Source: Nitrososphaerota archaeon (lineage in GTDB: Archaea > Thermoproteota > Nitrososphaeria > Nitrososphaerales > Nitrosopumilaceae). From it: DNA of 38,011 bases. The stretch lies in the NCBI GenBank assembly GCA_028867275.1, contig JAGWGU010000012.1:1-38011 (forward strand), written 5' to 3'. Every line of letters begins with the position of its first letter. Positions within the stretch are counted from its first letter, which is position 1. Below, in pieces: positions 7,264-12,470 of this stretch. Under the pieces are notes generated by a model that worked only from the letters and a program-made list of their open reading frames with translations, was not told the DNA's origin and did not search any database. The position numbers were made by a program, and so were the translations under genes.

Positions 7264-7425
7264 ATGTCAGTTGATGTTGTTTGCGGAAGATGCGGAGCGA
7301 AAATTGCAAATATGCGTATGTTAAAATCAATAAAAGACGTAATGCGTCCATATAACAGTAAATGTCCATCCTGTGGACACACACTTTCTCCATCAGAATT
7401 TAGTGTGGATGTACAGAAAAACTGA
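7264..7425 (+). CDS. Small two-knuckle zinc-ribbon protein (53 aa)
   Basis: This 53-residue protein carries two CxxC knuckles: CGRC (residues 7-10) and CPSCG (34-37), separated by a basic helix (MRMLKSIKDVMRP). This is a complete zinc-ribbon of the size seen in many small archaeal nucleic-acid or protein-binding ribbons. A TATA box about 26 nt upstream of the ATG and the intact knuckles support it as a real gene. It lies just upstream of the HTH/ATP-cone gene, and its 3' end overlaps a spurious upstream extension of that gene. Function is not recognisable. Confidence 0.72.
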   Translation: MSVDVVCGRCGAKIANMRMLKSIKDVMRPYNSKCPSCGHTLSPSEFSVDVQKN

Positions 7426-7492: not shown

Positions 7493-9589
7493 ATGGAACT
7501 TAGCGAGGACTTTGGCGATCCAAAACGTGGTGGAATATTACAATCAGCATCAAAACGTGTAAGAATGATCTTCTCTGTTATGGCAAGTCCAAACAGAATT
7601 GATATCTTACGTATACTAAACTCAAAGGGACCACTTACTTATTCCGAATTAAAATCTCTTGCTGGCTTTAAGTCAAAAAAGGAAAGTGGCAAGTTTGCAT
7701 ATCACTTGAGAAAATTACTAAGGCAGTCTCTTGTAGCACTGAACAAGTCTGAAAGGAGATATACTATTACTAACTTGGGAAAACTGGTCCTAAGTCTTGC
7801 AAGACAGATTGAAGAACGATCTATCATTGAAAGTGGTAAGATGTACGTTAGGACTTCGCATGAATCAATAGAAGAATTCAATTCTCATAAGATCATTCAA
7901 TCGCTGGTTCGAGAAGGTAGTCTTCCACTTGAGCTTGCTCAAAAAATTACTGAGGAAGTAGAAAACAGGATATACAAATTCCAAACATCTTATCTTACAT
8001 CCTCGCTTATACGCGAAATGGTCAACTCTGTGCTCTTAGAACAGGGCCATGAAGATTATAGGCACAAACTGGCAAGATTTGGCTTGCCTGGCTATGATAT
8101 CCATGAGATGTTAACCAACGTAGATGGTATTCATAACGGAGTTGAAGGTTTGCTATTTAAAACAGGTCAAAATGTATTTGGAGAATATCTTGTTTTAAAT
8201 ACTCTGCCTAAGGATGTGGCTGATTCCCACCTCTCAGGAGATCTTCATATTACTAATGCTGGATTATGGTCGCTTCTTCCAGATACAATATTTGTAAACA
8301 TCAAGGAACTTATCGAAGAAGGGGTTGACTTGAGAGGAAAATTCTTGGGTGTGACAAGGACTTCATCACCAAGTTCGTTAGATGATCTATTCACTTCCTT
8401 ATCGCTACTCACATGTCTTCTCATAAAAGAAGCATCACAAGAAGTAGTGATGGACGGGTTGATTGCAGTATTACAAAAATATTCCAAGAATTTGCCTGAA
8501 ATTGAAGAAAAACTTGCAAGTTGCTTTGCAAAAATATCTACAGGACCAAAATATGGAAAGAACGGAACACTTGCTTCATTTAGAATTTCCATTGGAACAG
8601 AACCAAAAATAGTTGGAACTGTTCTCCAAGCCTACAAGAAATATGTAAAGTCTACACCACTTCCTTCCATAGGATTGGTTATTGATTATGAAAAGGCCAA
8701 GATAAGTGACTATTCAGAAACTTTAGCAGATGTGATTGCATTAGGAGGACACATTATGTTTGCTAAAGGATTGGTATCTAACAAAGGATTAGCACGAGGA
8801 GATACAAAGAATGTTGGAACAACTTCTATCAATTTAGAGTCTTTATCGATCAATATGCCAAGACTTGCCTTTGAATCTAACAAAGATGAAACTTATTTCA
8901 GAGCAAGACTTGCACTGTTAATGAAACCTGCACTGGCAGCCATGTCTCTAAGAAAGAAAGAGATATCTGATCTAACAAGACGTGGTCTTAACCCGATACT
9001 TGCAAACAATACTCAGTACATGCAAAAGGGATCAGTTACACTTGTTGTTAATTTGATTGGCCTCAAGGAGGCAGTTTATGGTATTCTAGGATATGAAAAT
9101 AACAAGGCTGGACACGAAATCCTAGCCAAAGTGATAAACACTGCTATGGAAGTAGCCACAAAGAAAGGAAAAGAGATGGGTGATAATGTCATTGTAACCA
9201 TGACTGAGAGTGACGCTGCAAGTCGTTTCTCGTCTCTTGATGGTGAAAAATATGGTAAAATGTCAATTAATCATCATGTAATGGGAGAATCATACTCCGA
9301 AGGAGTTGTTCTTGACGCCTCTGAGATGACAGAGATGACTCCTAAGAATGAAAAGATTGTGGAATCGAATTATTTTTCAAAAATACTTAACGGCGGTCTC
9401 TTAGTTCAATTAAAGATCCCCGATGCAATGGATTCTTCAGGAATAAAGAAAGCAATAGAAAAGGCAGGAGATCTATTGGGATCTTTCAGGCCTATCAAAA
9501 AAGTACCTATATGTAGCAACTGTGGTCTCAAAGAGGAAAAGATCGCTGAAAAGTGTTCTGTTTGTAAGTCTCCTTACATACTAGCATAA
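7493..9589 (+). CDS. HTH / ATP-cone / NrdD-like protein, likely RNR regulator
   Basis: This 698-residue multi-domain protein has a winged-helix (ArsR-like) DNA-binding domain at about residues 20-105 (SPNRIDILRIL, then KFAYHLRKL). An ATP-cone-like helical domain follows at about 118-205, ending in EDYRHKLARFG. Next is a long NrdD-like region (HLSGDLHI; SINLESLSINMPRLAF; GLKEAVYGILG; ESDAASRFSSLDGEKYG). The last residues are a C4 zinc site (CSNCG, CSVC), and the chain stops there. Class III reductases continue past this site with a glycyl-radical loop (RVxGYL type), which is missing, so catalysis is unlikely. The ATP cone is the dATP/ATP sensor of reductases and of bacterial NrdR. Its neighbour is the reductase NrdJ. 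I infer a nucleotide-sensing transcription regulator; no direct proof exists in the sequence. Confidence 0.85.
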   Translation: MELSEDFGDPKRGGILQSASKRVRMIFSVMASPNRIDILRILNSKGPLTYSELKSLAGFKSKKESGKFAYHLRKLLRQSLVALNKSERRYTITNLGKLVLSLARQIEERSIIESGKMYVRTSHESIEEFNSHKIIQSLVREGSLPLELAQKITEEVENRIYKFQTSYLTSSLIREMVNSVLLEQGHEDYRHKLARFGLPGYDIHEMLTNVDGIHNGVEGLLFKTGQNVFGEYLVLNTLPKDVADSHLSGDLHITNAGLWSLLPDTIFVNIKELIEEGVDLRGKFLGVTRTSSPSSLDDLFTSLSLLTCLLIKEASQEVVMDGLIAVLQKYSKNLPEIEEKLASCFAKISTGPKYGKNGTLASFRISIGTEPKIVGTVLQAYKKYVKSTPLPSIGLVIDYEKAKISDYSETLADVIALGGHIMFAKGLVSNKGLARGDTKNVGTTSINLESLSINMPRLAFESNKDETYFRARLALLMKPALAAMSLRKKEISDLTRRGLNPILANNTQYMQKGSVTLVVNLIGLKEAVYGILGYENNKAGHEILAKVINTAMEVATKKGKEMGDNVIVTMTESDAASRFSSLDGEKYGKMSINHHVMGESYSEGVVLDASEMTEMTPKNEKIVESNYFSKILNGGLLVQLKIPDAMDSSGIKKAIEKAGDLLGSFRPIKKVPICSNCGLKEEKIAEKCSVCKSPYILA

Positions 9590-9647
9590 CTTTCACCATA
9601 GGAAAGGCTAATAGTTTAGTGAACAAAATTTTTGAATTAATTCCGGA

Positions 9648-9673
9648 TTTTATATCAAAATTTTATATCAAAA
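9648..9673 (+). repeat. Perfect tandem 13-bp repeat in the nrdJ promoter region
   Basis: TTTTATATCAAAA occurs twice, head to tail with no spacer (9648-9660 and 9661-9673). Each unit contains a TATA-like core. A start of transcription 25-30 nt further on would fall just before the Shine-Dalgarno of the leader ORF at 9703. It could be the promoter plus an operator for the adjacent HTH/ATP-cone protein. The repeat is seen directly; the regulatory role is inferred. Confidence 0.6.
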
Positions 9674-9702
9674 TTTATTTTGCCATAAGGTGATCTAATA
9701 CT

Positions 9703-9816
9703 ATGGAAATTGTAACGGTGTCAACAAAATTGATCCAAAGTTTAGCTTTAGAAAATTATTTTTTGCCGCAGTGTTTAATTAACTGCCATTTGATAGGGTT
9801 GAGGGGAGTAATTTGA
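9703..9816 (+). CDS. Possible leader ORF coupled to nrdJ (37 aa)
   Basis: This short ATG-started frame (MEIVTVSTKLIQSLALENYF and 17 more residues) has GGTGATC, a seven-base match to the archaeal anti-Shine-Dalgarno, 7 nt before its ATG (9689-9695). It ends at a TGA whose first two bases are the last two of the TTG start codon of nrdJ, so ribosomes ending here would sit on the reductase start. The peptide resembles nothing I know. It might be a translated leader that couples or regulates nrdJ translation, or a chance frame. A TATA-like TTTAATTAA at 9774-9782 inside it could instead drive a shorter nrdJ mRNA. Confidence 0.35.
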   Translation: MEIVTVSTKLIQSLALENYFLPQCLINCHLIGLRGVI

Positions 9817-12470
9817 CAGATTTTTCACAAATAGAAAATTCGATCATTCAAGTAAAGAAGCGCGATGGTCGAGTATCGGATTTCCAAAGAGATAAAATTT
9901 CAAACGCAATCTACAAAGCACTTGTTGCTTGCGGAAGATCAGATCATGGATTGGCAGACAAGCTAGCCAGTCATGTTCTTACAAAACTTGTGAATCGGGG
10001 ATTTTCTGGTTCAGAAGCACCAAGTGTAGAAGATGTTCAAGACATGGTCGAGTCTACTCTGATTGAAGAAGGACTCGGTGAGATTGCAAAGGCATACATC
10101 CTATACAGACACGAACGACGAAGAGTTAGAGAAGAAAAGATGAAAGTTCTTGAATCTAAATCGCTTGATAGCGTTGCAAAGAAATTTGATCTTAATTGTT
10201 TGAGGGTTCTTGCATCTAGATACCTGCTCAGAAATAACAAAGGTCAGATAACTGAAAGCCCAGGCGAAATGTTTGAAAGAGTTGCTATTTTGGTAGGAAT
10301 TGCAGATATCATTAGAGATCCATCTGTATTTCAACTTGAAGGGGGAAATACCCAAAGCACAGAGGAAGCAGCAAGATATCTGGACAAACTTGATGACTTT
10401 AACTACAAATTCAAGATAGGAAAATACTATCTTAACAAATATCACTTTAGATCTTTGATAAATCACTACATAGACTTGGCAAAACATGGACAGATGAAAG
10501 TCAGCTTTAGAGAATTGTTGACCATGTTAGCTGCAAACAAGTTTGAACAATATACTGAACGAATCAAAGAAGCTGCTGATCTTATGGTTGCACAGGACTT
10601 TCTACCTAATTCTCCAACTATGATGAATGCTGGTGCACGATTAGGCCAACTTTCTGCATGTTTTGTGCTTGCAATGGAAGACGACATGGAAAAGATAATG
10701 AAATCATCATCAGATGCTGCATTGATATTCAAATCAGGAGGCGGAGTTGGTATCAACTATTCCGATTTGAGACAAGAAGGAGATATGGTGGCATCTACAT
10801 CTGGAGTAGCCTCAGGTCCTGTCTCTTTTATGAACATCATTAACACTGTTACTGAAGTAGTCAAACAAGGTGGTAAACGAAGGGGTGCAAATATGGGAAT
10901 CATAGAAGCATGGCATCCCGATATTGAAAAATTCATCACTGCAAAAACAAAACCAGGTGTTCTCGAGAACTTTAATGTAAGTGTAGGAGTTTGGGAAGAC
11001 TTTTGGGAAGCACTTGTTAATTCGTCAGATGGAAAATTTACTCTTAGAACTCCAAAAGATAAAGCACCTGTAAGAGAAATAAATGCACATCATCTGATTG
11101 ACTTGATTGCACTTTCTGCATGGAAGAGTGCTGAACCAGGATTGATCTTCTTTGATATCATAAACAAATACAATGTTTTTGCAAAAGCAAGAGGTCAACC
11201 AATACGAGCAACAAACCCATGTGGAGAACAAAGTCTCTATCCATACGAATCATGCAATCTTGGCTCGATTAATCTAGCTAATTATGTTAAGAGAAAAGCA
11301 GATGGTCAATACGAGTTTGATTGGCAACGATATGAAGAAACCATACGAAAGACAACAAGATTCCTTGATAACATCATAGATGTTAATACATATCCAATTC
11401 CAGAAATTGACAAGGCATCAAAAGACTCTCGAAGAATCGGACTTGGAGTGATGGGAGTTGCAGATCTCTTGTTCAAATTACGAATTCCGTATAACTCACA
11501 AGAAGGATATGAGTTCCAAGAGAAACTTGCTGAAGCACTGACATACTATTCTATGGAAGAAAGTGTTGCACTTGCAAAGACACGAGGGTCATTTCCACTC
11601 TGCTCAAAAACCGAATATCCAGAAGGCAAAATTCCTGTTGCTGGGTACTATGAAAAACCAAAAAGTGCTCGCACTTATGATTGGGATGCCCTGATTGCCA
11701 AGATTCAGAAACATGGTATTAGAAATGTTCTGACAACAACTGTTGCTCCAACTGGTACACTGTCAATGATATCTGACTGTTCAAACGGAATGGAGCCAAT
11801 GTTTGCTCTAGTCTTTGAAAAGAGAGTGACAGTAGGTAGGTTCTTCTATACTAACAAAATCTTTGAAGCAGTACTAAAAGAACAAGGACTATACAACGAT
11901 CAAATTCTTGAAAAGATTGCAAATAACTATGGTTCAGTAAAAGGAATCGCTGAAATTCCAGAATGGATGCAGAAGATATTTGTCACAGCAATGGATATTC
12001 ACTGGGCAGATCACCTGATGGCTCAAGGAGTATGGCAACGCTGGATAGGTAACGCTATTGCAAAGACAATCAATATGCCAAATGACGTCTCGTCTGATGA
12101 TGTAAAAGCTGCATATCTACTAGCACATGATCTTGGTCTGAAAGGAATTACTGTATTCCGAGATGGTTCAAGACATGAACAAGTATTGCACATGACTGGA
12201 AACAATGTTCAAAAGAACTTCCAAGTAACCCCAAGTGGTTTTGTCACAGACTATATCTCAAAGAATGTCACAAATGCATATCTAAAAAGTGAGATAGAAA
12301 GAGCACTTCAAATAAAAATTCCAGATAATATGCAATCTACTCCCGCACCAGCACTTACTCCAGAACAAATGGAAGAAAGACTATGTCCTACATGTAAAAA
12401 CAACTTGGTATTTGCAGAGGGATGTAGTGTGTGCATAGAATGCGGATATAGTGGTTGTACATCTGGATGA
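9813..12470 (+). CDS. nrdJ: Adenosylcobalamin-dependent (class II) ribonucleotide reductase
   Basis: This 885-residue enzyme reduces ribonucleotides to deoxyribonucleotides using a B12-generated thiyl radical. An N-terminal ATP cone (about 12-104) is the allosteric switch. The catalytic barrel follows, with Cys283 (LSACFVL), the loop NPCGE (Asn468, Cys470, Glu472) and APTGTLSMISDCSNG near residue 650. The C-terminal 35 residues are Cys-rich (CPTC, CSVCIECGYSGC) and match the redox-active zinc-binding tail of this subclass. Length is typical and no intein is present. The start is TTG with a purine-rich GAGGGGAG just upstream. Its cofactor is the end product of the cobalamin operon at 33-37 kb. 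Upstream lie the HTH/ATP-cone gene, the tandem repeat and the possible leader ORF. Confidence 0.96.
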   Translation: MTDFSQIENSIIQVKKRDGRVSDFQRDKISNAIYKALVACGRSDHGLADKLASHVLTKLVNRGFSGSEAPSVEDVQDMVESTLIEEGLGEIAKAYILYRHERRRVREEKMKVLESKSLDSVAKKFDLNCLRVLASRYLLRNNKGQITESPGEMFERVAILVGIADIIRDPSVFQLEGGNTQSTEEAARYLDKLDDFNYKFKIGKYYLNKYHFRSLINHYIDLAKHGQMKVSFRELLTMLAANKFEQYTERIKEAADLMVAQDFLPNSPTMMNAGARLGQLSACFVLAMEDDMEKIMKSSSDAALIFKSGGGVGINYSDLRQEGDMVASTSGVASGPVSFMNIINTVTEVVKQGGKRRGANMGIIEAWHPDIEKFITAKTKPGVLENFNVSVGVWEDFWEALVNSSDGKFTLRTPKDKAPVREINAHHLIDLIALSAWKSAEPGLIFFDIINKYNVFAKARGQPIRATNPCGEQSLYPYESCNLGSINLANYVKRKADGQYEFDWQRYEETIRKTTRFLDNIIDVNTYPIPEIDKASKDSRRIGLGVMGVADLLFKLRIPYNSQEGYEFQEKLAEALTYYSMEESVALAKTRGSFPLCSKTEYPEGKIPVAGYYEKPKSARTYDWDALIAKIQKHGIRNVLTTTVAPTGTLSMISDCSNGMEPMFALVFEKRVTVGRFFYTNKIFEAVLKEQGLYNDQILEKIANNYGSVKGIAEIPEWMQKIFVTAMDIHWADHLMAQGVWQRWIGNAIAKTINMPNDVSSDDVKAAYLLAHDLGLKGITVFRDGSRHEQVLHMTGNNVQKNFQVTPSGFVTDYISKNVTNAYLKSEIERALQIKIPDNMQSTPAPALTPEQMEERLCPTCKNNLVFAEGCSVCIECGYSGCTSG

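Follow-up and report, generated by a model that had tools for sequence, protein, structure and literature searches.

Gene and protein architecture

The window (the whole 38,011-nucleotide stretch of DNA analyzed here) belongs to a Nitrosotalea-like ammonia oxidizer and carries, on its forward strand at positions 7493 to 9589, a gene for a 698-amino-acid protein in which a winged helix, an ATP-cone, and a body resembling the class III ribonucleotide reductase (RNR) NrdD are joined in one chain. We refer to this winged-helix/ATP-cone/NrdD-like protein as NDL. Its reading frame is open from position 7373, and the ATG at 7493 is the start kept in relatives ("MEL..."), with the stop at 9589. Downstream on the same strand lies nrdJ (9813 to 12470), which encodes a class II (B12-dependent) RNR with an ATP-cone of its own (TIGR02504, 734.7 bits) and is the likely target of NDL. 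Directly upstream of NDL, at 7264 to 7425 on the forward strand, is a gene for a 53-amino-acid protein with a double CxxC zinc ribbon, which keeps its position throughout the window's family and has no Pfam assignment above the cut-off. Homologs of 535 to 587 amino acids also occur (L222, L225, L226, and L228); they keep the winged helix, but little of their NrdD barrel can be recognized.

The ArsR/SmtB-like winged helix spans amino acids 18 to 113 (7544 to 7831) and was assigned from Pfam, AlphaFold with Foldseek, profile matches, and conservation. Pfam models DUF7347 (41 bits, amino acids 26 to 100) and HTH_20 (amino acids 30 to 82) both exceeded their gathering cut-offs, and a profile of this N-terminal domain, which contains no cysteines, matched ArsR, HlyU, and CadC chains. 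Modeled alone, it reached a pLDDT of 89, with Foldseek matches to ArsR/SmtB/CadC/CzrA and MarR structures. The predicted recognition helix (KESGKFAYHLRKLLRQ; 7676 to 7723) is the helix that AlphaFold2 places at amino acids 62 to 77, and it carries invariant residues. Next comes the ATP-cone at amino acids 117 to 200 (7841 to 8092), identified by invariant residues and by PF03477 (amino acids 117 to 189, 39.3 bits versus a cut-off of 25.8), and then an NrdD-like region at amino acids 201 to 670 (8093 to 9502), identified by PF13597 (NRDD; amino acids 442 to 693, 85.7 bits versus 26.2), Foldseek, and the cysteine columns of an alignment. A C4 zinc site (Cys 674, 677, 688, and 691; 9512 to 9565), evident in sequence and alignment, closes the protein; 7 residues lie between Cys 691 and the stop, and there is no glycyl-radical loop. 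Since NRDD, DUF7347, and ATP-cone were all matched in 51 of 51 members of a diverse homolog alignment, the domain assignment is not a product of chance.

AlphaFold2, supplied with an alignment of 51 locus-derived homologs, returned a model of NDL with mean pLDDT of 84.8 and pTM of 0.76. The top 36 Foldseek matches to the whole model were class III RNRs throughout (9d3x at E 4.7e-20), and the model aligned to T4 NrdD (1h7a) with a TM score of 0.67 by target length. A profile search matched NDL to 9d3x at E 1e-36, which establishes homology to NrdD at the sequence level. The sequence-only reading of this DNA had described a winged helix, an ATP-cone-like domain, NrdD-like segments, and an end just past a C4 zinc site, and had proposed AlphaFold as a check; all of these features were borne out, and the model recovers the winged helix, the cone, and the barrel.

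Loss of catalytic residues and descent from NrdD

That reading overlooked that the NrdD active-site cysteines (FC-Q and Q-CC) are also missing from NDL. When winged-helix homologs were aligned with NrdDs of the same phylum, the active-site cysteine columns were kept in 0/67, 0/67, and 1/67 of them, and the column of the radical glycine (SR(V/I)TGYY) held glycine in 2/67. Genuine NrdDs had the catalytic cysteines and the radical glycine in 29/29 cases, after three NrdD rows lacking catalytic residues had been set aside as truncated or doubtful. The four zinc cysteines were kept in about 60 of the 67 winged-helix homologs. No NrdG activase gene was noted among the neighbors that were examined. 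We also considered whether some lineage might retain a working reductase topped by a regulatory head, and rejected this: glycine occupies the radical column in L211 and L154 only, and both lack one or more of the active-site cysteines.

Members from ammonia oxidizers, including the window protein, stop at the zinc site. A degenerate radical-loop tail persists in several members from other organisms (YGRLTTRYETISSWDYGKRIEYMERFRHII in L153 versus WSRVTGYYQAVSGWNKGKREELANRYRTGL in NrdD), so the tail was lost after descent from NrdD. In an IQ-TREE mixture-model tree, a single branch with SH-aLRT support of 100 separated 29 winged-helix rows from 18 NrdD rows, and the ammonia-oxidizer members nested inside the wider winged-helix clade; a quick FastTree analysis gave low support for the same split. 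Judged from these alignments and trees, the winged-helix proteins are one clade of single origin, derived from NrdD. The earlier proposal of a class III reductase scaffold as the ancestor is thus upheld, by homology to NrdD and membership in one clade in which every catalytic residue was lost and an ArsR-like winged helix was gained.

Conservation of the predicted DNA-binding and sensing domains

Mean pairwise identity among ammonia-oxidizer members fell from 83% for the winged helix to 72% for the cone and 37 to 41% (about 39%) for the NrdD-like parts, and it reached 95% over amino acids 58 to 77 around the recognition helix. Residues G66, F68, Y70, H71, and L72 of the recognition helix and R120, E127, F129, and T169 of the ATP-cone are invariant in 51 sequences. 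We take R120, E127, and T169 to be the counterparts of R10, E15, and T55 of Escherichia coli NrdA, which contact nucleotide. The position of Lys9 in the E. coli protein is presumably that of Val119 in NDL, so nucleotide binding by the cone is to be regarded as putative. In families f15, f27, and f41, most recognizable barrel sequence is gone, while the winged helix is kept, as is the cone in some. The pattern points to selection acting on the DNA-binding and sensing parts while the barrel drifts.

Loss of every catalytic residue would also be expected of a decayed class III reductase that survives as a functionless pseudogene or a chance fusion. We give this reading negligible weight, as it is refuted by conservation: the frame is open in nearly all genomes, the high identity of the winged helix (83%) holds across families, gene order is kept, and presence is phylum wide. 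A winged-helix-plus-cone profile found matches in 257 of 397 genomes of the phylum, a few of the weaker ones probably being NrdD cones.

Linkage to nrdJ in ammonia oxidizers

The synteny with nrdJ that the sequence-only reading had proposed to check is found across relatives: nrdJ lies on the same strand just downstream of NDL in 157 of 161 ammonia-oxidizer loci (a redundant set), and the four exceptions are three contig ends and one convergent arrangement (L158). G024, a near-complete genome from the order, lacks NDL. Linked nrdJ genes from 11 families are 35 to 97% identical to that of the window, and the ATP-cone is missing from some of their products (e.g., L028, of the TSCPD type). Because the linked nrdJ lineages differ this widely while linkage to NDL persists, it appears that the regulator stayed and the enzyme was replaced.

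Several loci showed features of their own. A further class II RNR gene, unlinked, is present in the window's genome (L282, contig C43, 1410 to 3221), and similar unlinked second copies occur in L283 to L286; none has TGTCAA upstream. Overlong nrdJ or nrdD frames of 1115 to 1737 amino acids, broken inside conserved motifs, were seen in L021 (4262 to 7711), L207/L234, L235, and G068:C1 and probably hold inteins. A locus recorded as a Phycisphaerales bacterium (L083) is of the Nitrosopumilus type (69% identity) and is probably a misbinned contig.

The tight linkage to a reductase gene would also suit a protein-level allosteric partner, in which the dead NrdD body docks on NrdJ or NrdD and tunes its activity, with the winged helix as a protein-protein module. 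Such a partner could supply a cone to linked NrdJs that have none, such as L028; most linked NrdJs, however, have their own. Moreover, the adjacent reductases are as little as 35% identical, come from unrelated lineages, and may be of class II or class III, which makes them ill-suited to one docking surface; many NDL genes adjoin pyrB/pyrI, UMP kinase (UMPK), or dcd instead; and conservation is highest in the recognition helix and lowest in the barrel, the natural docking surface. Although this is the main rival to a transcription factor, it is made less likely by how varied the adjacent reductases are, by the pyrimidine-linked copies, and by a DNA-binding head that is better conserved than the barrel, and we consider it distinctly improbable.

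A candidate operator upstream of nrdJ

Inside 9590 to 9812, the region singled out by the sequence-only reading, lies a candidate operator (GGTGTCAACAAAATTGATCC; 9717 to 9736, forward strand) with the dyad GTCAA-N5-TTGA at 9720 to 9733. A TATA-like element of nrdJ (TTTAATTAA; 9774 to 9782, forward strand), recognized by its sequence and conserved spacing, follows it at a distance of 54 bp. Members of the window's family conserve GTGTCAA-N5-TTGA ahead of nrdJ, with the dyad either 44 or 54 bp before the TATA-like element, positions that are one helical turn apart. In many relatives another conserved dyad, TATGAnnnTCATA, lies just upstream of the operator; its counterpart at 9702 to 9714 of the window is degenerate (TATGGAAATTGTA) and is possibly a second site or the site of another factor.

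Compared with shuffled sequences, a fixed 12-letter model (TGTCAA-N5/6-TTGACA) was strong in the window's family and not significant in others. With a looser dyad and word counts, adopted after the fixed model and therefore partly post hoc, with some sequences already seen, perfect dyads (GTCAA-N3-6-TTGA) were found in linked intergenic regions of 4 of 14 held-out families versus 0.32 expected from the locus background (P = 3.5e-4), and TGTCAA occurred 10 times in linked intergenic regions of other families versus 2.4 expected (P = 2e-4). The held-out families with a perfect dyad are f4, f13, f12, and, before nrdD, f49; the dyad is absent in f3, f2, f6, and other families. Essentially no dyad was found at nrdD genes that are not adjacent to NDL (f18, f21, f37, and f47), and there was none before unlinked second reductases in five of the same genomes or before the reductase of G024, which lacks NDL. 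Autoregulation of NDL was rejected, as no dyad lies upstream of NDL and TGTCAA occurs there 7 times versus 7.0 expected.

Should NDL be a transcription factor for other genes, its place beside nrdJ would reflect inherited gene order. In favor of this alternative, a scan of relatives' genomes with GKTGTHAANNNNNTTGAVC gave no excess of sites over a reversed control, although the pattern excluded the TTGATC form of the genus's own site. We nevertheless find the alternative very improbable, given that linkage to NDL outlasts replacement of the reductase and that the dyad is specific to promoters of linked reductases, with none upstream of second, unlinked reductases carried by the same genomes.

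Neighbors across the phylum

We examined 60 further loci, drawn mainly from classes other than the ammonia oxidizers, with Pfam checks on neighbors. A nucleotide gene lies within two genes of NDL in 41 of the 60, representing 19 of 32 families. The neighbors include pyrB at 25 loci, which is the commonest, pyrI at 15, nrdD at 10, UMP kinase at 5, dCTP deaminase at 2, and nrdJ at 1. Genuine nrdD is found directly downstream of NDL in f45, f36, and f65, with a glutaredoxin gene between the two in f36. The claim that the regulator is tied to the B12-dependent reductase therefore stands for the ammonia oxidizers and fails elsewhere, where NDL adjoins genuine nrdD or pyrimidine genes. Since NDL keeps such company across the phylum, the family tracks nucleotide synthesis, not the B12-dependent reductase specifically. 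An archaeal NAC gene adjoins NDL or lies near it in several deep families (L261, L267, L270, L274, L275, and L158), and the slot between the two is filled by dcd or nrdJ in L153, L264, and L158.

The prominence of pyrB and its relatives in these counts, together with the divergent orientation of NDL and pyrB in f22, f27, and f41, would be natural if NDL chiefly regulated pyrimidine synthesis (aspartate transcarbamoylase) and the reductase were a secondary or lineage-specific target. The usual arrangement of pyrB is tail-to-tail with NDL, though, indicating association without a shared promoter. The dyad is not enriched before pyrB, pyrI, or UMPK, and linkage in the ammonia oxidizers is with nrdJ only, so we view this explanation as unlikely.

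Comparison with NrdR and other known systems

Of 200 phylum genomes, 14 gave a score above the cut-off for the NrdR model TIGR00244, and each of these belongs to family f16; NrdR was not found in the sampled ammonia oxidizers or in the window's genome, and NDL itself had no match to this model in an NCBIfam scan. These results agree with the suggestion of an independent solution to NrdR. In several f16 genomes (e.g., G117:C96, G135:C33, and G093:C48), an NrdR gene sits beside an nrdD of a different type, with which it was probably acquired, and winged-helix NDL is kept elsewhere in the genome, which indicates that NrdR and NDL are separate solutions.

NrdR is a bacterial RNR repressor of 140 to 220 amino acids consisting of a Zn-ribbon and an ATP-cone (PMC9110341). 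Like NrdR, NDL is a single chain with a DNA-binding domain and an ATP-cone, is encoded by an RNR-linked gene, and would be expected to read ATP/dATP. Unlike NrdR, its reader is a winged helix, it carries a whole NrdD body, its candidate operator is a conserved dyad different from paired NrdR boxes, and its cone is of the NrdD type, whereas that of NrdR belongs to a distinct two-nucleotide class (PMC9110341). With class III RNRs (PF13597; 9d3x, 1h7a, and 4coi) NDL shares the cone, the barrel fold, and the C4 zinc site, but it lacks the catalytic cysteines and glycyl-radical loop and has gained the winged helix. The fold of the DNA-binding head is that of ArsR/SmtB regulators (CadC, CzrA, and HlyU), which have no RNR body or cone; by analogy with the binding of ArsR/SmtB-type dimers to inverted repeats, the conserved dyad near nrdJ is consistent with a similar mode of binding by NDL. 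An enzyme-derived regulator of nucleotide genes is also found in Bacillus subtilis, where PurR consists of a winged helix and an inactive phosphoribosyltransferase fold. As in PurR, a dead pathway enzyme would serve NDL as the sensor of a winged-helix regulator; the enzyme fold, the ligand, and the domain of life differ.

Proposed function and implications

Altogether, we propose that NDL is a dead NrdD converted into a transcription factor that controls RNR genes in response to ATP/dATP, a reading to which we assign a probability of roughly 0.7. In this proposal, an ArsR-like winged helix would have been fused ahead of the ATP-cone of an archaeal NrdD, and the catalytic cysteines and glycyl-radical loop would have been lost, the barrel surviving as a scaffold. 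A dimer of NDL would bind GTCAA-N5-TTGA upstream of nrdJ, or of nrdD in other lineages, and occupancy of the cone by ATP or dATP would switch DNA binding, tying reductase expression to the dNTP pool. Because the dyad precedes the TATA box by 44 or 54 bp, we lean modestly toward an activator in the ATP-bound, low-dATP state over a dATP-dependent repressor.

More tentatively, and with somewhat less than even confidence, we suggest that such RNR-derived factors have a single origin in a class III reductase, early in the history of the phylum, and kept control of dNTP supply while class III nrdD gave way to several lineages of class II nrdJ. They may read ATP/dATP through the cone, and the old specificity site might let them sense other dNTPs as well, with some lineages coupling dNTP supply to pyrimidine synthesis.

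In the open-access literature covered by our search, we found studies of NrdR and of RNR cones and no experimental description of the NDL family, in line with the sequence-only reading, which was aware of none; nor did we find there any regulator of RNR genes in ammonia oxidizers. For annotation, a protein of an aerobic ammonia oxidizer that matches NrdD models is not necessarily an anaerobic reductase. For bacteria, RNR gene control through NrdR is well documented, and NDL would fill the corresponding gap in ammonia-oxidizing archaea, where NrdR was absent from the genomes examined. If our reading is true, RNR transcription came under ATP-cone control on at least two occasions, and NDL would be a clear case of an enzyme that became a regulator of its own pathway and outlived the replacement of that enzyme.
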